In this document: piece by piece, positions 1-31,844 of the stretch
How the letters are laid out: every line of letters begins with the position of its first letter
Position numbering within the stretch: position 1 is the first letter of the stretch
DNA from: Xylanibacter rarus
GTDB taxonomy: Bacteria; Bacteroidota; Bacteroidia; Bacteroidales; Bacteroidaceae
DNA length: 32,431 bases
Reading direction: 5' to 3'
NCBI RefSeq assembly: GCF_001275135.1
Contig: NZ_LFQU01000031.1
Location: 1-32,431, forward strand
The notes under the pieces: model-generated
Databases searched by the model: none
Seen by the model: only the letters and a program-made list of their open reading frames with translations
What the model was told of the DNA's origin: nothing
Translations under genes and position numbers: made by a program

Positions 1-995
1 ATAAGCATCTTCTTAACAGCCTCCGCACGCTCTGAAGACAAGCGGCTGTTTATAGCAGCAGTGCCTGTTCCGGCATCAGCGTAGCCTGTTATTTCGACAA
101 TTGCATTTTTATGATTGTTTAAATATTTAGAAAGTTCGTATACTTTCGCACGTTCTGATTCACGGATAACGCTTGAGTTTATCGTGAAGAATACGTCGCG
201 CTTCATGCCCTCGTCTTTTACCTCTTCTACAACGGGCTCGCTTACCGGCTTCTCTTCAACAACAGGCTCCACGACAGTCTGCTCTACAGGCTCCGGTACC
301 GGGGCAGCCTTCTTCTTGTAGGTCTTGCCCAAGCGTATTGAAACGCTGGCAAGAGCGTTGAAATACCAGTCGGCATTGCCTGCCTTCTTTGAGTTGTACT
401 TGTCTGAGAGAACGTTTGCATTGCCTTCTATACCGAGACTGACACGATCACTCAAACGGAAATCAAGAGCAAGTCCGCCACGGCCTACAGGACGAACTTT
501 TGTGCCGCTCCACAGATAAACCAAGTCATAACCTTGACCGGCAATATTATTAGCCTCATCGTTACCAAAAGCGATATTCGCAGCACCGCCAACAAAAGCA
601 GAAACATTTACCGTACGATGAGGATTGTATCCACAAATGGCATTTGAAAGATTGAACACGACATCGATACTCGGTGCAACATACTTGTATTTATAAGTAA
701 TATTGCGTGAAACGCCATCTTCGATGTACCCATTAAAACCTCCTTTGCTCTGCCATGCACCGACAGCCAGTCTTGCACTTAACCATGGATTAAACTGCCA
801 ACCCAACCCTATCTGAACGCTCGGTGAAATAAGTTCAGAGAAATCAGACTCACCAAGTGTATACTGGGCTCCTCCCTGCACCTGCAGATATGCGTGGGGC
901 TGGAAGATATATTCAGAAGAAGACTCCTGCGCATTAACAGACGCGTTTGTCGCAAATATCATTGCGGACAGTGCGATAAATAGTTTCCTTTTCAT
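1..995 (-). CDS. OmpA-family outer membrane protein, 3' end cut by the window edge
   Basis: The reading frame is open from an ATG at 995 to base 1, giving about 331 residues without a stop. It starts with a signal peptide (MKRKLFIALSAMIFATNASVNA, cleavage expected before QESSS). Residues of about 24-225 are rich in alternating aromatic and glycine positions, as in an eight-stranded OmpA barrel. A linker rich in Pro, Val and Glu follows (about 226-255). The last part begins the OmpA C-terminal peptidoglycan-binding domain: FFTINSS, then GYADAGTG and the signature NSRLSSERAEAVKKML. In the family the barrel sits in the outer membrane and the C-terminal domain holds the cell wall. Only 16 bp separate it from the lipoprotein gene upstream, so the two are probably co-transcribed. 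About 50 residues of the domain are expected beyond the window. The family assignment is secure; the exact role is not known. Confidence 0.93.
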   Translation of the reverse strand, partial: MKRKLFIALSAMIFATNASVNAQESSSEYIFQPHAYLQVQGGAQYTLGESDFSELISPSVQIGLGWQFNPWLSARLAVGAWQSKGGFNGYIEDGVSRNITYKYKYVAPSIDVVFNLSNAICGYNPHRTVNVSAFVGGAANIAFGNDEANNIAGQGYDLVYLWSGTKVRPVGRGGLALDFRLSDRVSLGIEGNANVLSDKYNSKKAGNADWYFNALASVSIRLGKTYKKKAAPVPEPVEQTVVEPVVEEKPVSEPVVEEVKDEGMKRDVFFTINSSVIRESERAKVYELSKYLNNHKNAIVEITGYADAGTGTAAINSRLSSERAEAVKKML

Positions 996-4600: not shown

Positions 4601-5754
4601 AGGTTCTTGATGGCTGTTGCATGCTCTGTCACTGTTGCCTGAATAGTTTCAACAAGGTTATTTATCTTTGCTATTTCAGTGTTGATGGCAGCTACGTTTG
4701 TGTTAACAGCATCGCTAAGTTCCTTTAAGTCAGCACTAAATTCTGTTTTAAGGCCTTCAATTTCGGCATCAATCAAACCCAATTTCTCCTCAGCTGCAGC
4801 AATACGTACTACGGCGTCAGCAAGGTCACCCTTAACAGTTTCTATTTCAACGCCAAGTTCTGCTTTCAAGGCAGCAACCTGTGCATCGGTATAAGCCTTT
4901 GCAGCGTTAAGACCCTCTGTAAGTTTTGCGTCAAGGGCAGCCAGACTTTCTGCCATGTCAGCAAGTTTCTGAGAGTTTTCTGTAACCATCTTCAGGATAG
5001 CCTCATCCTTGCCCTGCAGAGCAGTAATAGCATCAGCATTGTTCTTTATAAGAGCGTTAACCTCAGCCAACTGAGCATCTGCCGCAGCCTTGTTGGCAGC
5101 AATCTGCTCCAGTGCTCCGTCGATCTTATCGCCGAGAGCTGAAATCTGGTTGTCGAGCTCACCTTTAACTGTTGCAAGATTTTCGATAACACCGTTCAGG
5201 ATATCTGCGTTCTCGTCAGCCTTCTGCTGAGCTGCGATAGCCATATCCTTGGCGCTCTGAATCTCGCCGTTAGCTATATCAATAGCACTCTGCAGCTCTT
5301 TGTCTGCATTGAGCAAGCCATTAATAGTTTCTTCCTGAGTAGAAACTTTAGAAGAGAGAGCATCCAGCTCTGCGTTAGCTGCATCTATTGAAGCCTGCAA
5401 CAGAGCACAAGCTTCCTCGATGTTCTTCTTTGAAGCCTCGATTGCAGCAGCCTGTGCGGCGGCAGCCTGAATGTCAGCATAGCTCTTAGCATCAGCTACG
5501 GCCTGCTCAAATTCTGATTTTGCATTGGCCAAAGCTGTCTCAAGTGTAGCGTCTTGAGCCTTAAGGGCCTCAATCTCGATGGTGAGATTGTTAATCTTCT
5601 CCTTAACCATCTCGTCGAGCGTAGACGCATTAGTCGTGATTTGTTCCTGCAGGTTATTGATGTCGTCATCGTAGTCCTTACAAGAGACAAACATGCTCAT
5701 TGAAGCGCAGAAGCACGCCGCAAAGAACATTGAACTGAAAAATCTTTTTTTCAT
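1663..5754 (-). CDS. giant coiled-coil surface lipoprotein (CKDYDDD type), 1363 residues
   Basis: The start is set at the ATG at 5754 because it gives a clean lipoprotein signal peptide (MKKRFFSSMFFAACF, lipobox FVSC, acyl cysteine at 25). A longer frame adds 19 residues that make no sense as an export signal. After CKDYDDDINNLQEQI comes a coiled coil of about 500 residues (about 30-530), very rich in Ala, Glu, Lys, Asp and Leu with few breaks (repeats such as AALDAKLTEGLNAAKAYTDA). From about 545 to the end the protein is beta-rich, with Thr, Asn, Val and Tyr, and no enzyme motif I recognise. Bacteroidales proteins with this start are sometimes labelled 'PL29 family lyase N-terminal domain', but I see no lyase domain here. 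The shape suggests a long stalk with a C-terminal head or array domain on the cell surface. The promoter region is flanked by inverted repeats (5811-6001) and appears to be in the OFF orientation. Confidence 0.9.
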   Translation of the reverse strand: MKKRFFSSMFFAACFCASMSMFVSCKDYDDDINNLQEQITTNASTLDEMVKEKINNLTIEIEALKAQDATLETALANAKSEFEQAVADAKSYADIQAAAAQAAAIEASKKNIEEACALLQASIDAANAELDALSSKVSTQEETINGLLNADKELQSAIDIANGEIQSAKDMAIAAQQKADENADILNGVIENLATVKGELDNQISALGDKIDGALEQIAANKAAADAQLAEVNALIKNNADAITALQGKDEAILKMVTENSQKLADMAESLAALDAKLTEGLNAAKAYTDAQVAALKAELGVEIETVKGDLADAVVRIAAAEEKLGLIDAEIEGLKTEFSADLKELSDAVNTNVAAINTEIAKINNLVETIQATVTEHATAIKNLQDKAAELDQKLADVKMTADQAKQSIADLVADFEKYKKDNENNINDKIAALGSELRTELQNQVNALNSAISSLEAKDADLQKQIDALRTQLGAITGDDSTVGLIDEKIQAVNDRIDDLMANEIADLVNRMSWVENEINNIYQELAQNSAIIGQIINRFSLESRQLKSLVYSPKEYYQGIEAIGVWSFNYYAITGGLATPDLDANQTNDYAEKRASSETSVVPVVTASYYMNPSNAEVELDKTKYSFIVSNANYTRAANANDIMVDSVKKDSKITGLLNVYFSMKNANSIANINNGKVDVAALRYNGNDTIVTSDFAALKQYAIKEFYINKSATGNAAEDESSENHLAYSAADAVKHNAAGEYEWPVLEIAYNNTEGINLDKWINVHYMFADNKKETFWGDQAEINKKKFKLVYELIGYIANDADKTNESKHATIKGSILKVHGIDGAEASRKIIGRTPLVRVKLVDENTNSQVAEVGYIVVKITDVTTDPVVVPETDINPVDKDFTVACDGALALNNVTAITWAEVENHVLGTLDMSKEEFEKNYTLELNWNTQNAAQYSYDANKNKFTVIAADDQIGTIVNTKDGTAGYETNVLKWTVSNNQAYQIFGDGTKTSVTVWVRFKPNNTVHGQRDVYVPLTWKPAVRNIAPEATIKNSDKKTADWHAANSREAGYDELHIQVGNATDPSASCEYQSMVVENTFSKIPVQIIKDAISGTYPALAASANVTYEFAPIADQAITQYVGESGARYYINVTSTRITTTSGELLAEIEPVHGTITLGATNAAKDIINNYDYVEGALANALTLTVVVKPTTCQPASDLITLKNNMFNVKVIKPMFIEGSQIADMQLNDYSTLTQPVTLNFIDFNGYDPKTFWEKSNQQKEFWKFYDVKSIKLSGNIQTNYSGYWAEVDANDFEVTFTEPSGAIKLGNMGSVTLTQKNMSRANSFKVRIPLAVTYKWGVLHETVELNVNAASGNAAKRR

Positions 5755-5810
5755 TTGACAAATTAATTTAATTAAAAAACTATATATAATTATATTAGAG
5801 TATTCTACCA

Positions 5811-5836
5811 CTCTTTCTTGCCAAGAGATGGATTTT
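5811..5836 (-). repeat. left recombination site of the invertible promoter
   Basis: The site has two facing arms around a 7-base asymmetric spacer (TCTTGCC, 5816-5822). The inner arm AAGAGATGGATTT matches the right site in 12 of 13 bases. The outer arm (CCACTCTT) has lost one base relative to CCATCTCTT. Arms of this size around a short spacer are the usual layout of tyrosine-recombinase crossover sites. Confidence 0.78.
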
Positions 5837-5938
5837 AGGCGTCAAAACCTCGTGTTATAAGGATTTTTGTGTCAGCGTATCTTCTGTTATGTCAAATAAT
5901 AGTTTTTTCAGCATTTTTGAAAAAAAATCGCTAAATCA

Positions 5939-5970
5939 TTTGCAGATATTAGTATTTGTTCATATATTTG
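5939..5970 (+). promoter_or_regulatory. perfect Bacteroidetes promoter inside the invertible segment
   Basis: TTTG at 5939-5942, exactly 20 bases, then TATATTTG at 5963-5970. This matches the Bacteroidetes primary sigma factor consensus at every defined position. The start of transcription is expected near 5977, at the edge of the right repeat. In this orientation it reads into a region without a gene. Confidence 0.85.
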
Positions 5971-5976
5971 CATCGC

Positions 5977-6012
5977 AATTCCATCTCTTGGCAAGAAAGA
6001 GATGGAATTTTT
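5977..6012 (+). repeat. right recombination site, also a terminator-like hairpin
   Basis: A perfect palindrome with 13-bp arms (AATTCCATCTCTT at 5977-5989, AAGAGATGGAATT at 5997-6009) around the 7-base spacer GGCAAGA (5990-5996). The spacer is the reverse complement of that in the left site, so recombination between the two would invert the DNA between them. On the plus strand the hairpin is followed by five T (6008-6012), which would act like a terminator on RNA started at the OFF-oriented promoter. Confidence 0.78.
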
Positions 6013-6488
6013 GTTAAGTATTTTACACCTTATTTTATTATATATAACCCTTTGCCGGAACATAGCAAATACATCTTTATAAACTCTGTTTTTCCGTCAT
6101 CAAGCAACTGTCATATGCTGATTACCGTTACTGAAACAAAATTCACTAATAAAATTAACACAGAAAAAACGTTCGACTTATTTCAAAATAATTAATGCCG
6201 ACAACAGAAAACTTTTTTATTTTGACGCTCCCAGAGTGGCGATGCCCGTCACGAATACGGCTTCGGGACGTAAAAAGTGCCAAAAACGTAAAATCAAGAC
6301 AACCAACTGATATACTGACAGTTACGCATTTTCAAGCAGAAAAAGCAAAGAGTTAAAAAATATTACTCTGCCGTTTACCACACAAAAGTGGCCGTTTACG
6401 ATGTCAAAGTAGCTCACTTTTATGGTTAAACGCAGCGATTTAGCCGTAAAAAACGGCTCTTTTCAGAGATAATACAGACGATAAAGAC

Positions 6489-6539
6489 AACAGATGTTAA
6501 TACAAACAGGCATTACGGGCCAACGGTTTAACATCTGTT
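6489..6539. repeat. 12-bp perfect inverted repeat
   Basis: AACAGATGTTAA at 6489-6500 and its exact reverse complement at 6528-6539, separated by 27 bases. No T-run follows on either strand, so it does not look like a terminator. Its role is unknown. Confidence 0.7.
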
Positions 6540-6562
6540 ATACATTTGATTTCTATTTCACA

Positions 6563-6596
6563 GAAAACTTTATACATAATAATGTAAAAAGTTTTC
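6563..6596. repeat. long AT-rich hairpin
   Basis: Arms of 15 bases: GAAAACTTT, one mismatch, TACAT, then a 4-base loop and the matching strand. It lies 24 bp from the preceding inverted repeat and 140 bp beyond the stop of the O-methyltransferase gene. There is no classical T-run, so it is not a clear terminator, although it could stabilise a 3' end. Confidence 0.65.
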
Positions 6597-6735
6597 GGAT
6601 GATGTCATATCACTAACACGGCGCAGATAGCCCAACCGAGAACTGACGGATACCGGCTAAAAGGACATGACGGTTAACGGCATAAGACAAAATAGGCAAA
6701 ACATTGCGGATATGGCTAACGCCCCGACAGCGCCG

Positions 6736-7371
6736 TCACGGATTCTTGCGTATCAGCGTCAGTCCGTCGCGCAACGGCAAGAGGACCTTCTCTACGCGGC
6801 TGTCGTTCATCACGAAGTCGTTGAAGTTTTCGATGCCGGCAGTCTGGCGGTCGCTGCTCTTGGGCACTTCGAGCACATGACCGTCCCACAGCGTGTTGTC
6901 GGCAAGGATGAAGCCGCCGGGACGGAGCACTGACAGCGCCATTTCGTAAGACTCGATATATGTGCGCTTGTCGCCGTCGATGAAAGCCATGTCGAACTCA
7001 ATGCCCAGTTTGGGCGCCTCCTTTATGGCGTCACCAATGATAAAACGTATCTTGTCTGCCACGGGCGAGTTTTCAATCCACGGACGTGTGAAGTCTTCCT
7101 GCTCGTCGTTAATCTCGTATGTGTACACCATTCCGCCTTCTTCCAGTCCTTGCGCCATGCATATAGCACTGTATCCGCTGAACGTTCCCACTTCAAGAAT
7201 GTTCTTCGGCCGTATCATCCTCACCAGCATCTTCAGCAGTCTGCCCTGCAGATGTCCGCTCGCCATGCGTCCGCGCAACAAGTGAACGTTAGTGGCACGC
7301 CACAGTCTGTAAAGATAGTCGCCCTCAGGGTCGATGTGGGACAAAACGTAGTTTTCTAATTCATAATTCAT
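6736..7371 (-). CDS. SAM-dependent O-methyltransferase (caffeoyl-CoA/catechol OMT family)
   Basis: A 211-residue class I methyltransferase of the PF01596 type. The SAM-binding motif I is ILEVGTFSGYSAICMA (about residues 58-73). The metal and substrate site shows as FDMAFIDGDKRTYIESYE, followed by GGFILADNTLWDGHV. The N-terminal YVLSHIDPEGDYLYRLWRAT matches the usual start of the Bacteroidetes members. These enzymes transfer a methyl group to a hydroxyl of a small molecule; the substrate here is unknown. The gene follows aroQ on the same strand. Its first codons (MNYELE) are made from the AATTCAT-type repeat that fills the space to aroQ, which is odd: TTTTCTAATTCATAATTCA occurs at 7352-7370, inside the gene, and again at 7386-7404 upstream. 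Confidence 0.93.
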   Translation of the reverse strand: MNYELENYVLSHIDPEGDYLYRLWRATNVHLLRGRMASGHLQGRLLKMLVRMIRPKNILEVGTFSGYSAICMAQGLEEGGMVYTYEINDEQEDFTRPWIENSPVADKIRFIIGDAIKEAPKLGIEFDMAFIDGDKRTYIESYEMALSVLRPGGFILADNTLWDGHVLEVPKSSDRQTAGIENFNDFVMNDSRVEKVLLPLRDGLTLIRKNP

Positions 7372-7390
7372 AATTCACAATTCACTTTTC

Positions 7391-7511
7391 TAATTCATAA
7401 TTCACAATTCATAATTCATAATTGGGATGCTTTCTTAATTTTTAATTCTTAATTTTTAATTTCCTCCCCTTTCCTCCCAATTATGAATTATGAATTGTGA
7501 ATTATGAATTA
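7391..7511. repeat. 37-bp perfect inverted repeat between aroQ and the methyltransferase gene
   Basis: The arms at 7391-7427 and 7475-7511 are exact reverse complements built from AATTCAT/AATTCAC units ending in GGGA/TCCC. The 47-base loop is pyrimidine-rich on the plus strand. The right arm covers the last codons and stop of aroQ. It would fold into a very stable hairpin in the mRNA and may work as a terminator or processing site, or be an inserted miniature repeat. Confidence 0.9.
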
Positions 7512-7924
7512 AATATTATTCCTTCTATCGCAAGTCTGTAGGAGTCGAGACCGAAACCGCAGATGACGCCAAGGCAGGCGCACGAAATCATTGACTTATG
7601 GCGAAACTCCTCTCGCTTGTGTACGTTAGAGATGTGAACCTCAACAACGGGAGCTTTCAGCGAACGTATGCAGTCCTGCAGGGCAATGCTCGTGTGGGTG
7701 TAGGCTCCTGCGTTGAGCACTATGCCGTCGTAGGTGAATCCCACTTCCTGCATCTTGTTGATAAGTTCGCCTTCTATGTTGCTCTGATAATAGTCGATGT
7801 TTACATCAGGCATCTTTTTTCTCAGTTCGTCAAGATAAGCCTCAAAAGAGTTGCTGCCGTAAATCTCAGGCTCTCTACGCCCCAGCAGGTTCAGGTTGGG
7901 GCCGTTGATAATCATTATGTTCAT
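7502..7924 (-). CDS. aroQ: type II 3-dehydroquinate dehydratase
   Basis: A 140-residue protein of the usual length for the dodecameric type II enzyme, which converts 3-dehydroquinate to 3-dehydroshikimate in the shikimate pathway (aromatic amino acids, folate). Motifs: IINGPNLNLLGRREPEIYG at the start, with the lid arginines (16/17) and catalytic Tyr22; NAGAYTHTS (71-79) for substrate binding; and EVHISNVHKREEFRHKS (95-111) with the catalytic histidine at 102. The last two residues and the stop codon lie within the inverted repeat 7475-7511. A TAATTTTG -7 element lies upstream on the minus strand (7995-8002). A small hairpin GGCAACA/TGTTGCC at 7952-7969 lies in the leader. Confidence 0.96.
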   Translation of the reverse strand: MNIMIINGPNLNLLGRREPEIYGSNSFEAYLDELRKKMPDVNIDYYQSNIEGELINKMQEVGFTYDGIVLNAGAYTHTSIALQDCIRSLKAPVVEVHISNVHKREEFRHKSMISCACLGVICGFGLDSYRLAIEGIIFNS

Positions 7925-10973: not shown

Positions 10974-11903
10974 ATGATTCAGAAAGAACAAGACAACATT
11001 ATACACAAATATATCCGCTACATGAAACTTCAGCGTAATTATTCAGGCAATACGCTCGAAGCATACATCCTTGACATCAACAAGCTATTAAAATTCCTGA
11101 AGGACAACGGCATCCGTCCGGAAGCGGCAAAACTAAGCGACATACAATGCTTTGCCGCCTCACTGCACGACATTGGGATATCACCACGCTCACAATGCAG
11201 GATTCTAAGCGGCGTGAGAGCATTCTACAAATATCTGTATCTTGACGGATACATCAAGGACGACCCTACAGAACTGCTCGAATCGCCAAAACTCGGCGAC
11301 CATCTGCCCGAGGTACTCACCACGGAAGAGGTGGACAGACTGGAGCAGGCCATAGACCTGAGCAAATGGGAAGGACAACGCAACAAGGCCATAATAGAGG
11401 TGCTGTTCAGCTGCGGACTGCGCGTCAGCGAACTTGTAAACCTGAAGATGTCTGCGCTTTATCTCGACGAACAGTTCGTAAGAATAATGGGCAAAGGCAA
11501 CAAGGAGCGGCTCGTGCCTATATCTGAAAATGCTATAGAGCAGCTGAAATACTGGTTTATAGACCGCAGCCACATGAACATAAAGCCGGGAGAAGAAGAC
11601 TACGTTTTTCTGAACCGCCGAGGCGCACACCTCACCCGCACCATGATACTGATAATGATAAAGCGGCTGGGTGCCGAGGCAGGCATACAGAAGACGATAA
11701 GTCCGCACACACTGCGCCACAGCTTTGCCACCGCCCTGCTTGAAGGCGGAGCCGACCTGCGCGCCATACAGAGCATGCTCGGACACGAGAGCATAGGCAC
11801 AACCGAGATTTATACACACATAGACACGCACACTCTGCGCGAGGAAATTCTGAACCATCATCCGAGAAACATGGCAGCAAAGGATAATAAGGTGAAAGAA
11901 TAA
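10974..11903 (+). CDS. xerD: tyrosine recombinase XerD
   Basis: A 309-residue phage-integrase-family recombinase with an N-terminal SAM-like DNA-binding domain (about 10-95) and a C-terminal catalytic domain. All catalytic residues are present: Arg150 (SCGLRVSEL), Lys174 (GKGNKER), His245 and Arg248 (SPHTLRHSFAT), His271 (LGHESIGTT) and the nucleophile Tyr280 (EIYTH). Length and sequence fit the housekeeping XerD, which with XerC resolves chromosome dimers at dif near division. In related genomes as I recall, xerD sits beside aroQ; here tdh and kbl lie between. It is the only recombinase in the window, so it is a possible but unproven actor at the invertible promoter 5 kb away. The 113-bp gap to the next gene contains a palindrome (TGAAATAA/TTATTTCA, 11988-12004). 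Confidence 0.94.
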   Translation: MIQKEQDNIIHKYIRYMKLQRNYSGNTLEAYILDINKLLKFLKDNGIRPEAAKLSDIQCFAASLHDIGISPRSQCRILSGVRAFYKYLYLDGYIKDDPTELLESPKLGDHLPEVLTTEEVDRLEQAIDLSKWEGQRNKAIIEVLFSCGLRVSELVNLKMSALYLDEQFVRIMGKGNKERLVPISENAIEQLKYWFIDRSHMNIKPGEEDYVFLNRRGAHLTRTMILIMIKRLGAEAGIQKTISPHTLRHSFATALLEGGADLRAIQSMLGHESIGTTEIYTHIDTHTLREEILNHHPRNMAAKDNKVKE

Positions 11904-13963: not shown

Positions 13964-14611
13964 ATGAAAACAAAGCTCAACATATTCTGCCTGCTTATCT
14001 TCGCCGTTATCATCGTAGACATATTGATGGCCACCGACCTTATGTTCAGCGGCATGGTCAGCGGATATAAGTCGGCCAAGCACATCCAAGAGACAAACAC
14101 TGAAAGTGTGGACGGCTATCGCGTTGTTTCGCTCATACCGAACGAAATCACATGGCGCAACGCAATAACCATAACCGACAGCGCAACGAATAAGTCGTAT
14201 AAGGCATGGCCTACACAGATAAACCTGCCGATAGAGGATTCTTCAGGCACAGCAGGCAGCATTCTGTCAGTAATCATAGGCATAGCAATAATGGTGGCAG
14301 GCATCATCACGCTGGTGTCGTTCATACGCTTCGTGCTGAACATCAACCGCAACAACATCTTCACACGGAAGAACACAAAATACCTTAAACGCATAGGCTG
14401 GTGCATGGTGATAATAGGTCTGCTGGCAACGATAAAATACTGTAATGACGTATATGCCGCCACACAGACGTTCAGCCTGACGGGCTACACCATCGGATAT
14501 TCAGACGCCGTGTACACGGGAACGATACTCTTCGGACTATTCTCTCTTGTAATGGCAGAGTCGTTCTCCATCGGACTGAAGATGAAAGAGGAACAGGAAC
14601 TCACGATATAA
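13964..14611 (+). CDS. DUF2975 four-helix membrane protein
   Basis: A 215-residue protein with four predicted membrane segments: about 5-27, 97-122 (SILSVIIGIAIMVAGIITLVSF), 143-160 (IGWCMVIIGLLATIKY) and 181-203. A periplasmic loop of about 70 residues lies between the first two. The segment NIFTRKNTKYLKRIGWCMVIIG is typical of the DUF2975 family, whose genes are regularly followed by a small Cro-like regulator, as here, 32 bp downstream. The pair is thought to act as a membrane sensor or modulator with its DNA-binding partner, but no function is established. Confidence 0.88.
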   Translation: MKTKLNIFCLLIFAVIIVDILMATDLMFSGMVSGYKSAKHIQETNTESVDGYRVVSLIPNEITWRNAITITDSATNKSYKAWPTQINLPIEDSSGTAGSILSVIIGIAIMVAGIITLVSFIRFVLNINRNNIFTRKNTKYLKRIGWCMVIIGLLATIKYCNDVYAATQTFSLTGYTIGYSDAVYTGTILFGLFSLVMAESFSIGLKMKEEQELTI

Positions 14612-14643
14612 TAACCTACGTAAACAACTCTAAAGCAACAAGT

Positions 14644-14856
14644 ATGGGTAAAATAATAGTAAACCTCGACGTGGAGATGGCCAAGCGGAAGATTTCGCTC
14701 GGCGAGCTGGCCGAAAGAGTGGAGCTTACGCAGGCTAATCTGTCGATCCTGAAGACCGGCAAGGCCAAGGCCATACGCTTCACCACGCTCGAAGCAATAT
14801 GCCGCGAGCTGGGGTGCCAGCCAGGAGACATTCTGGAATACCGGGAGGAAACATAA
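14644..14856 (+). CDS. small Cro/C1-type HTH regulator (YozG-like)
   Basis: A 70-residue protein that is essentially one helix-turn-helix domain: MAKRKISLGELAERVELTQANLSILKTGKAKAIRFTTLEAICRELGCQPGDILEY. The turn and recognition helix lie at about 29-45. Such short XRE proteins are the usual partner of DUF2975 proteins. The two genes are 32 bp apart and surely co-transcribed. The target is unknown; the TATCG(N5)CGATA elements upstream of the DUF3836-like gene are a candidate only by closeness. Confidence 0.9.
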   Translation: MGKIIVNLDVEMAKRKISLGELAERVELTQANLSILKTGKAKAIRFTTLEAICRELGCQPGDILEYREET

Positions 14857-14963
14857 ACCGGCTTACAGCATGGTATTTACACGAAAGTAACAATTTTGCA
14901 TACAAAACGTATAAAATTTATTAAATATAACAACCAGTAACAACATTCGAGAGATAAAAAAAC

Positions 14964-14971
14964 TATCTTTG
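14964..14971 (+). promoter_or_regulatory. -7 element of the M16 peptidase promoter
   Basis: TATCTTTG fits TAnnTTTG exactly; no TTTG lies 19-20 bases upstream. Transcription would start near 14978. This rules out a start codon at 14969 and supports the ATG at 14996. Confidence 0.6.
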
Positions 14972-14995
14972 TTGAACTATTTTAAACTCTTTTTT

Positions 14996-17830
14996 ATGAA
15001 AATAAAACATCTAATCATCACGGCCGCACTGTTCTTGGCAAGCACAGTGGGCATCATGGCTCAGGGCATGCAGATGCCTCCCATCCCGGTTGACCCGGCA
15101 GTGAGGACTGGCAAGCTGGCCAACGGACTGACCTATTACATCCGCAACAACGGTTATCCGGAGAATCGTGTTAACTTCTACATTGCCCAGCGCGTGGGTT
15201 CTATCCAGGAGAACGACGACCAGCGCGGTCTGGCTCACTTCCTTGAGCACATGGCCTTCAACGGCTCAGACAACTTTAAGGGCAACAACCTCATTGAATA
15301 TCTGCGCTCTATCGGCGTAGAGTTCGGTTCTGACCTCAACGCATACACAGGCGTAGACCAGACCGTATACAGAATATGCAACGTTCCTTCTACACGCATT
15401 GAGGCTCTCGACTCTTGTCTTCTCATCCTGAAAGACTGGTCTAACGGCCTTACACTCGACCCCAAGGAGATCGACAAGGAGCGTGGTGTGATCAACGAGG
15501 AGTGGCGCCTGCGCACTGACGCACAGACAAGAATGTTCGACCGCAACCTCGAGAAGATCTATCCGGGCAGCAAATACGGACAGCGCATGCCTATCGGTAA
15601 GATGGAGATTATCAACAACTTCAAGCCTGAAGTTCTCCGTCAGTACTACCACAAGTGGTATCGTCCCGACAACCAGGCAATCATCGTAGTCGGCGACATC
15701 GACGTTGACCGCACAGAGGCTAAGATCAAGGAGCTGTTCAGCGGCATCAAGCTTGATCCTAACGCTCCGAAGGTTGTCAACGAGCCTGTGCCCGACAACA
15801 ACGAGGCTATTATCATCGTAGACAAGGACAAAGAGCAGCAGACTGACATCATACAGCTGATGTACAAGCACCCCGAAGTGCCAGACAGCCTGAAAGGCAG
15901 CCTTGCATATCTCGTTCAGAACTATGCAGTAAGCCTCTCAACACAGATGCTCAACGCACGTCTGCAGGAAATACAGCAGAATCCTGACTGTCCGTTCGTT
16001 CAGGCTTACGCTTACGACAGCGACTTCATCCTGGCTTCTACAACCAAGGCATTCACCCTGGTTATCCTGCCGAAACCGGGCATGAGCGAGCAGGCCATCA
16101 GCACAGCCACACGCGAGGTTATGCGTGCCGTTAAGTTCGGCTTCACAGCCACTGAGTTTGAGCGCGCCAAGGCCGACTATATGAGCTCACTCGAGAAGGT
16201 TTACACCAACCGCAACAAGCGCGACAACGCTATATACGGTGACATCTACCGCGACAACTTCCTCGGCAACGAGCCTATGCCTTCAATCGAAGACGAGTAT
16301 CAGATAATGCAGCAGATTTCTCCGGTTATCCCTGTTGAAGCTGTCAACGAGATCACCAAGGAGCTGATAAGCGAAACTGACACCAACACAGTTGTAGTGG
16401 CATTCTACACAGAGAAGGAAGGTGCTAAATATCCTACAGCTGAATCTATCAAGAAGGCCATCGACGGCGTTCACGCTGAGCAGCTCACAGCATGGGTTGA
16501 CAACGTTAAGAACGAGCCGCTGATAAGCGTTCTGCCCAAGAAAGGCAGCATCAAGAGCGAGAAAGAGAACGCTAAGTTCGGCTACAAAGAGCTCACACTG
16601 TCTAACGGTGCAAGAGTATTGCTGAAGAAGACTGACTATAAGGACGACGAGGTTATCCTCAGCGCTACATCTAAGGGTGGTGCTTCTCTGCTCGGCAAGG
16701 AAGACTACGCTAACATCAAGATGTTCGACACGGCCATCGGCTACAGCGGACTGGGCAACTTCAGCAGCACTGAACTGCAGAAGGTACTGGCAGGCAAACA
16801 GGTTAACGTTGACCTCACAATGCAGAACCTGCACGAGACTGTAAGCGGAAGATCAACTCCTAAGGACCTTGAGACTCTCTTCCAGATGACATATCTCTAC
16901 TTCACAAACATCAACAAGGACGAGAAGAGCTACAACTCAATGGTGGGACTGATAAAGACCTCTCTGAAGAACAAGGAGCTTTCACCTGAGATGGCACTGT
17001 CAGACTCTGTAAAGAACACTCTCTACATGCACAACCCGCGCTTCGCCTCTATCGAGATGAAGGATGTTGAGAACGCTAACTACGACCGCATTCTGCAGAT
17101 TGCAAAAGAGCGCACAGCCAACGCTGCCGACTTCACATTCACAATCATCGGTAACTTTGACGAGGCTGCCATCCGTCCGCTCATCGAGCAGTATATAGCT
17201 TCTCTGCCTGCAAAGGGCGCTAAGGAAAACTGGAAGCCTGTTACTACTTACAACAAGGGCAACACTGTTAACCAGTTCTACCGCAAGATGGAGACTCCGA
17301 AGGCTAACGCTTACATGTACTGGTATAACAACAAGACTCCTTACACTCTCGAGAACAGCATCTACGCTGACGCAGCAGGACAGATCCTGAGCATGATCTA
17401 CCTGGAGAAGATCCGTGAGGAAGCCAGCGCTGCCTACTCTGCAGGAGCTGCCGGATACTCATCACTCGGAGGCGACGTTCCGTTCACATGCATCATCGGT
17501 GTTTGCCCGATGAAACCTGAGAAGAGCGACATGGCTATCGGCATCATGAACGACGAGGTTACTAAGATGACCAAGACTGTTGACGCTGAAATGCTCAGCA
17601 AGGTTAAGGAACTCATGCTGAAGCGTGCTGACGAAAACGTTAAGAAGAACAACTACTGGCTGGGCGTTATCCAGAGCTTCGACGAATACGGAGTTGACAC
17701 AAACACCGACTACAAGAAGATTGTAAGCGAAATGACTCCTGAGAAGATGGCTAAGTTCATGAAGAACGTCATCATCGGTGGCGGCAACAGCATCAAGGTT
17801 ATCATGCTGCCTGACACAATGAAGAAATAA
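14996..17830 (+). CDS. exported M16-family zinc peptidase (pitrilysin/insulinase type)
   Basis: 944 residues from the ATG at 14996, chosen because it gives a normal signal peptide (MKIKHLIITAALFLASTVGIMAQ) and lies after the promoter. The inverted zinc motif HFLEH is at 81-85, with the third ligand Glu162 in KERGVINEEW, 77 residues later as usual. Two M16 halves are visible: an active one (about 35-260) with its inactive pair (HKWYRPDNQAIIVVGDIDVD), and a second pair from about 520 to the end without the zinc motif. Members degrade peptides in the periplasm; Bacteroidetes relatives are often annotated zinc protease. Codon choice favours GTT, GCT and AAC more than in neighbouring genes, suggesting high expression. 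A strong terminator follows. Confidence 0.95.
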   Translation: MKIKHLIITAALFLASTVGIMAQGMQMPPIPVDPAVRTGKLANGLTYYIRNNGYPENRVNFYIAQRVGSIQENDDQRGLAHFLEHMAFNGSDNFKGNNLIEYLRSIGVEFGSDLNAYTGVDQTVYRICNVPSTRIEALDSCLLILKDWSNGLTLDPKEIDKERGVINEEWRLRTDAQTRMFDRNLEKIYPGSKYGQRMPIGKMEIINNFKPEVLRQYYHKWYRPDNQAIIVVGDIDVDRTEAKIKELFSGIKLDPNAPKVVNEPVPDNNEAIIIVDKDKEQQTDIIQLMYKHPEVPDSLKGSLAYLVQNYAVSLSTQMLNARLQEIQQNPDCPFVQAYAYDSDFILASTTKAFTLVILPKPGMSEQAISTATREVMRAVKFGFTATEFERAKADYMSSLEKVYTNRNKRDNAIYGDIYRDNFLGNEPMPSIEDEYQIMQQISPVIPVEAVNEITKELISETDTNTVVVAFYTEKEGAKYPTAESIKKAIDGVHAEQLTAWVDNVKNEPLISVLPKKGSIKSEKENAKFGYKELTLSNGARVLLKKTDYKDDEVILSATSKGGASLLGKEDYANIKMFDTAIGYSGLGNFSSTELQKVLAGKQVNVDLTMQNLHETVSGRSTPKDLETLFQMTYLYFTNINKDEKSYNSMVGLIKTSLKNKELSPEMALSDSVKNTLYMHNPRFASIEMKDVENANYDRILQIAKERTANAADFTFTIIGNFDEAAIRPLIEQYIASLPAKGAKENWKPVTTYNKGNTVNQFYRKMETPKANAYMYWYNNKTPYTLENSIYADAAGQILSMIYLEKIREEASAAYSAGAAGYSSLGGDVPFTCIIGVCPMKPEKSDMAIGIMNDEVTKMTKTVDAEMLSKVKELMLKRADENVKKNNYWLGVIQSFDEYGVDTNTDYKKIVSEMTPEKMAKFMKNVIIGGGNSIKVIMLPDTMKK

Positions 17831-28967: not shown

Positions 28968-29186
28968 TTCCAATCGGTCATCAGGCGGGCTGAAAGCATG
29001 AATACATAAAATTGATAAAGCGATGTGCGGTCTAATGACCGACTGGGGTTTATGTTTTCTGCCAGACATACCTGTTTCTGTCGTCTGTCTGAATCTGCAT
29101 TTTCCTGATACAGCCGCCATGCCTGCGAAAAAGCAGACGGCAGCACTTCCGATATAAGAAGGCTATACTTTCTATATAAAACAACA
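28968..29186. repeat. non-coding gap with two dispersed-repeat copies
   Basis: No gene is seen. 28986-29003 and 29028-29047 are two boxes that recur in opposite orientation at 31712-31731 and 31750-31767 with one mismatch each. 29117-29140 is a copy of the element also found at 10773-10795. Confidence 0.65.
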
Positions 29187-29222
29187 ATACGCCCAAATCA
29201 GCATGACCGATTTGGGCGTAAT
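29187..29222 (-). terminator. terminator of the glycosyltransferase operon
   Basis: A perfect 11-bp stem (ACGCCCAAATC, 29189-29199, with 29209-29219) and a 9-base loop. The minus strand continues with a T-rich tail. It lies 25 bp after the stop codon at 29245. Confidence 0.85.
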
Positions 29223-31682: not shown

Positions 31683-31844
31683 TACTCACAAAAGTTCCAA
31701 ACAGACATAGTCCCAGTCAGTCATTAGACCGTTTTTGTCTATTCTGTACATTCATGCTTTCAGTCCGTATCCTTGCTTTATATAGGCGTTTTTTGTGGCT
31801 GCAAAAAGAGACTACGACATAAACAATAGCGCACAAATTCAGAC
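31683..31844. repeat. non-coding stretch with a dispersed-repeat copy
   Basis: No gene is seen. 31712-31731 and 31750-31767 repeat, in opposite orientation, the two boxes at 29028-29047 and 28986-29003. Confidence 0.65.

Follow-up and report, generated by a model that had tools for sequence, protein, structure and literature searches.

The stretch of DNA analysed here, 32,431 nucleotides of Xylanibacter rarus (the window), carries at its start an operon on the minus strand, in which the gene of a giant S-layer-type lipoprotein comes first and is followed by those of a small protein and of an OmpA-type porin (Table 1). The C-terminal region of the lipoprotein gave no family match, and no relative of this part is known beyond the searched genomes. 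PF00691 was matched in the porin paralogue of the same genome and in the porin of genome G164, and the window porin was assigned by its homology to the latter. Upstream of the operon, two arms of 25 nt each, 96% complementary to one another, bound a segment of 191 bp in total (5811-6001) which contains a promoter directed away from the lipoprotein gene.

Table 1. Features of the lipoprotein operon and of the repeat-bounded segment upstream of it
Feature	Position	Strand	Remarks
OmpA-type porin	1..995	-	truncated by contig start; 59% to G164 OmpA
Small operon protein, 194 aa	1012..1596	-	homologous to G164 small protein, 26% over 156 aa, E 3e-8
Giant lipoprotein, S-layer-type, 1,363 aa	1663..5754	-	signal peptide, lipobox Cys then KDYDDD (by eye), long coiled coil
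Leader, ATG to proximal arm	5755..5810	-	without promoter by motif
Gene-proximal repeat arm	5811..5835		site core TCTT-GCC-AAGAG at 5816-5827
Bacteroidota-type promoter TTTG-N20-TATATTTG within segment, directed away from lipoprotein gene (OFF)	5939..5970	+	exact motif match
Gene-distal repeat arm	5977..6001		site core CTCTT-GGC-AAGA at 5985-5996
Putative guard terminator	5977..6009	+	13-bp stem, 7-nt loop, then T-rich tract

An earlier note on this DNA, made from the letters alone, had described a perfect inverted repeat of 22 bp around 147 bp, a perfect promoter pointing away from the gene and the absence of a gene-facing one. The repeat search returned the same 22-bp perfect part and 147-bp spacer, and 60 dinucleotide shuffles of the window contained no inverted repeat of at least 22 bp at a spacing of up to 500 (longest 15). 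The repeat is not the longest of the window, as an AT-rich one at 7391-7511 reaches 37 bp; this perfect inverted pair belongs to a group of AT-rich AATTCATAATTCA-type repeats (7357-7519) between the O-methyltransferase and dehydroquinase genes. Two minus-strand glycosyltransferase genes are flanked by imperfect inverted repeats, at 28986-29191 and 31712-31785. In consensus and spacing, TTTG-N20-TATATTTG is of the Bacteroidota type. Its sole exact match in the window is the plus-strand promoter of the segment, and two more matches have one mismatch (0.28 expected in the window at up to one mismatch). The motif search of 600 bp upstream of the lipoprotein gene found no gene-facing promoter, as the earlier note had stated. 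Inversion would bring the end of the -7 box to 5842, 88 bp 5' of the ATG, and the leader would measure about 83 nt when the start site is taken as 5 nt past the -7 box; the previously given geometry of 88 bp and about 80 nt is thereby reproduced.

Relatives of the lipoprotein were found with the query P0001 in 23 of 200 genomes of the genus. The 29 loci examined correspond to 24 distinct genes after subtraction of three without a recognisable N-terminus and of two duplicates. Five of these genes, those of the window and its own paralogue included, have a repeat-bounded promoter, which faces away in every case. The other 19 are devoid of such a module (short repeats in three of them, L018, L024 and L033, were not scored as modules); a gene-directed promoter is present in 13 of them, and six have none by motif. 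Gene-facing promoters in 13 of 19 loci without repeats versus none of five with repeats give a Fisher p of 0.011. In the leaders of the repeat-less relatives L018, L025, L028 and L032, a TCTCC/GGAGA hairpin recognised by eye is located just past the promoter and resembles the recombination core. Two loci show paired genes. At L256 (G121:C35:8000-20000) two divergent S-layer-type genes are arranged around a tyrosine recombinase gene (5034-6149). Their leaders and signal peptides are covered by shared inverted repeats of 103, 58 and 51 bp, and only one of the two genes was found to have a promoter facing it, which makes this locus a possible A-or-B switch. At L257 (G081:C72:156000-173000) two convergent S-layer-type genes ca. 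11 kb apart have a 226-bp inverted repeat at their 5' ends, and a recombinase gene (14379-15449) lies upstream of one of them.

The arms of the five Prevotella S-layer-type loci have a common core, CTCTT-N3-AAGAG. A gapped pattern with free N3 matched in 33 of 398 genus genomes compared to 3 of 398 for the reversed control; 30 of the 33 yielded a locus, extra modules within the same genomes being mostly left out. With a tighter pattern at least 117 stretches were obtained from the species collection, and the 80 titles listed comprise 75 Bacteroidales taxa, four Firmicutes bins and one 'bacterium P3'. The two arms agree in their N3 in 146 of 149 pattern hits, although the N3 differs between loci and chance agreement would be one in 64. 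Of these 146 matched-core modules, 132 have a -7 box close to one core or to both, and 14 have none by the motif used; 127 of the 139 boxes are placed at a distance of 13-17 nt from the core. We define the class by both cores, an identical N3, a spacing of 143-173 and a -7 box ca. 15 nt from the core; the window module fits this class in its cores, its N3, its spacing and the position of its -7 box. Among 137 distinct modules, 54 adjoin a tyrosine recombinase gene from one cluster, which often ends about 30 nt from the site. Further clusters of targets are represented by a SusC-like receptor, by a cytosine DNA methylase and by a helicase whose PLD-like match stays below the cut-off. Modules such as L172, L131, L112 and L123 precede the helicase cluster (one member scanned), in both orientations, or a cytosine DNA methylase. 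The literal arm was discarded as a genus-wide marker, since its 19-base form with up to two mismatches gave outside the own genome only scattered matches, none of them paired. The site motif may already be published in Jiang 2019.

Modules of the same class precede CKDYDDD lipoproteins in Phocaeicola, with an AraC-type gene in between. Among 61 genomes of one genus, five contain modules; 15 of the 18 modules read, from two genomes, precede an AraC-type gene, and 14 have the lipoprotein signature within 1.5 kb. All 15 Phocaeicola S-layer-type modules (L288-L304) are OFF as judged by the -7 box alone, and they have one N3 or its complement. An ON copy was not encountered among the 20 S-layer-type modules read, five from Prevotella and 15 from Phocaeicola.

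The X. rarus genome (3.79 Mb, 85 contigs) contains a second module, with a 17-bp repeat, upstream of a paralogous operon on contig C20. An OmpA gene forms the end of both the window's contig (C31) and C20; over 880 bp the two copies are 80% identical. The start of contig C49 overlaps with neither end. Two NusG-like (UpxY-type) genes are also preceded by modules, on C58 with the standard core and on C1 with the variant core CTCCT-AAT-AAGAG, which is missed by the gapped class pattern. All four modules are directed away from their gene, i.e. OFF (those of C58 and C1 judged by eye), and carry four different N3. The recombinase family is represented in this genome by two close members (534 and 444 bits; next best 90), one of 402 aa on C1, adjoining the module there, and one of 346 aa on C49; PF13102 and PF00589 are present in both and in the one module-neighbour recombinase scanned. 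In the recombinase tree the C1 protein groups with the module neighbours (fork support 84/99, drawn open), and the C49 protein is placed near S-layer-linked recombinases without support. On the window's contig, which ends inside OmpA, the family has no match at E 1e-5; in G164 a recombinase gene follows just past OmpA. The XerD of the window (10974-11903) was rejected as the invertase, being of the core Xer type and at most 22% identical to the family recombinases, and a serine invertase is thought unlikely, the genome having one weak PF00239 match (30 bits, above the cut-off of 23.3).

Comparison of homologous loci indicates that the module class inverts, because the inner segment is inverted in 23 of the 80 locus pairs in which both flanks align and has the same orientation in the other 57. 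The best inverted pair is 94.9% identical inside, and the 23 pairs involve 20 loci, some of them being the same contig in two collections. The inverted pairs compare species and therefore document inversion since their divergence, not within one culture; their targets are other than S-layer-type genes. Orientation was classed for 80 of the 137 distinct modules (11 of them S-layer-type) plus that of the window. Recombinase-flanked modules with a clear target side are OFF in 34 and ON in 7 cases, and the other modules outside the S-layer group in 20 and 8 cases, respectively.

The distal arm also forms, together with its outer flank, a hairpin directly downstream of the OFF promoter. Folding of the RNA 5970-6030 gave -17.4 kcal/mol compared to a shuffle mean of -8.4 (z -3.8), none of 200 shuffles being as low. 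In a terminator pattern scan of 5600-6700 the hairpin is the sole match and shuffles give 0.8; one terminator-like site per 1,101 bases is about the shuffle level and was counted against the best explanation. According to a common terminator rule (stem of at least 7, 3 G-C pairs, loop of 3-8, 5 T in 8), applied to 12 S-layer-type modules including seven of the 15 from Phocaeicola, the OFF exit is terminator-like in nine (the window, two of four other Prevotella and six of seven Phocaeicola modules) and the ON exit in none; C20, G164 and one Phocaeicola module have no OFF-exit terminator by this rule. The corresponding numbers for OFF and ON exits are 1 and 4 among the 41 recombinase-flanked modules and 3 and 1 among the remaining 28, so that the modules outside the S-layer group, pooled, have an OFF-exit hairpin in 4 of 69 cases. 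Since the Phocaeicola modules are nearly copies of one another, the Fisher value for the enrichment in S-layer-type modules (5e-7) overstates the evidence. The guard terminator was ruled out as a general feature of the site class, both by the 1 of 41 recombinase-flanked modules and over 78 modules, where the longer stem is found at the ON exit in 42 and at the OFF exit in 21 and the lower-energy fold at the ON exit in 50 versus 27 at the OFF exit, although the higher T content past the stem is at the OFF exit in 49 versus 20 at the ON exit.

On the basis of these data, the segment 5811-6001 is very probably an invertible promoter of the S-layer-type operon that was assembled in the OFF orientation. 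This interpretation, already offered in the earlier note, fits best with the anatomy of the locus, with the repeat-less relatives and with the wider module class, and because promoters of the class flip in related sequences, the window module is most likely a genetic on/off switch. Inversion at the window locus itself is inferred, as none of the 20 S-layer-type modules read is ON. Mechanistically, the promoter would be flipped by recombination between the two CTCTT-N3-AAGAG sites, carried out in trans by a tyrosine recombinase such as the family members encoded on C1 and C49. In the OFF state the RNA would start a few bases before the distal arm and be halted by the hairpin of this arm and the outer flank, which presumably acts as a terminator. 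In the ON state the promoter would read through the proximal arm, whose flank has no U-tract, into the operon, producing the leader of ca. 83 nt and a protein that presumably forms a surface layer. We further suggest, tentatively and with slightly more doubt than confidence, that in Prevotella and Phocaeicola the flipping promoter of the S-layer-type operons is guarded by a terminator: the arm would represent one half of an intrinsic terminator, the other half and the U-tract would be provided only by the OFF-side flank, and the promoter would be active both ways, giving a short dead-end RNA in the OFF state.

Because none of the 20 S-layer-type modules is ON, a fixed arrangement is conceivable for targets of this type. 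In this case the segment would no longer flip or would never have done so, an away-facing promoter and a terminator would produce a short RNA, the proximal arm would serve as a leader hairpin and the operon would be silent or transcribed from an unrecognised promoter. The uniform orientation of all 20 modules agrees with such a view, as does the TCTCC/GGAGA leader hairpin seen by eye in several repeat-less relatives, owing to which the proximal arm could have another role. However, the N3 varies by locus and yet agrees between the arms in 146 of 149 hits, an agreement that would not be required of a mere terminator; inversion of the class is seen at other loci, and the S-layer switch of B. thetaiotaomicron is reported to be mostly OFF as well, with ca. 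1 in 1,000 cells ON (PMC12548429). We consequently regard a fixed segment as unlikely.

It is very unlikely that the main role of the sites is exchange, be it among S-layer loci or within a pair of genes, instead of a plain ON/OFF flip. Exchange is suggested by the divergent lipoprotein genes of G121 around a recombinase gene with their inverted repeats of 103, 58 and 51 bp, by the convergent genes of G081 with a common 226-bp inverted repeat and by the single core or its complement in the 15 Phocaeicola modules. The window module, however, has a single lipoprotein gene and its promoter lies within the repeats, and the four different N3 of the own genome argue against exchange among its four modules. 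A chance repeat beside a chance promoter match has practically negligible probability in view of the shuffles, the paralogous module and the relatives.

The preferred reading, an invertible promoter, places the window beside the S-layer/OmpA operons of the BT1927 type in B. thetaiotaomicron, for which the reports describe an operon of a surface lipoprotein and an OmpA-family or barrel partner, the latter named in PMC12578637, a promoter flanked by inverted repeats upstream of the lipoprotein gene, a mostly OFF state and site-specific integrase genes nearby (PMC12118408, PMC12548429, PMC12578637). The published repeat, CCGTTACCTABVRAGTAAC with integrase and OmpA neighbours (PMC12118408), differs from the window arms: its core is GTTACCTA-N3-AGTAAC instead of CTCTT-N3-AAGAG, and its near form GTTACCTANNNAGTAACGG has no match in the own genome. 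Moreover, the window operon has no adjoining recombinase gene in the part seen, its far side lying beyond the contig end, and its OFF-side terminator-like hairpin may be a further difference. The near form occurs in 10 of 301 family genomes at 25 loci, many of them accompanied by recombinases that share 28-39% identity with the C49 protein and with the recombinases of the Prevotella S-layer-type loci. In three of the ten genomes (L269, L272, L284) it adjoins lipoproteins with the same N-terminus. Over 51 aa the window protein shares 45% identity (E 3e-10) with a lipoprotein that follows the near-form repeat, and the own paralogue matches another one at 23% over 719 aa (E 3e-21), partly coiled coil; for one Bacteroides-type lipoprotein the alignment is limited to the N-terminal 50 residues. 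Because same-N-terminus lipoproteins stand behind the published S-layer repeat, phase variation of this protein kind is already known, and the remark of the earlier note that the family seemed undescribed as a phase-variable target does not hold.

Invertible promoters of Bacteroidales capsule (UpxY) loci with tyrosine-type invertases are a known system. They share the promoter type with the window, and the own NusG/UpxY-type loci on C58 and C1 carry this site or a variant of it; the target in the window, in contrast, is a lipoprotein operon and not a capsule locus. The cwpV switch of Clostridioides difficile resembles the window in its inversion segment of ca. 195 bp upstream of a large surface protein and in an intrinsic terminator proposed for the OFF state only (PMC2784873). 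As described there, the cwpV promoter lies outside the segment, whereas that of the window lies inside and would flip, the proposed hairpin stopping the OFF transcript. In the open-licence literature we found no described Prevotella S-layer switch. The window module thus belongs, with good support, to a known kind of switch, from which it differs in its site and possibly in a guard terminator; what may be new is this site, its employment at S-layer-type genes of Prevotella and Phocaeicola, and the guard terminator.

The phase-variable S-layer-type coats of B. thetaiotaomicron are reported to affect resistance to phage and complement (PMC12548429). The present finding would extend such coats to Prevotella and Phocaeicola with another recombination site, and the site pattern permits such switches to be found across the Bacteroidales from assemblies alone. 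If the guard-terminator reading is true, the OFF state would be very tight, in keeping with the 20 of 20 modules found OFF, and the OFF promoter might supply a small RNA; the guard terminator would then be a simple, testable cause of tight silence. Since the assembly shows both coat operons and both capsule-type loci of this genome in the OFF state, with related sites at all four, a coordinated switching of the cell surface becomes directly testable.
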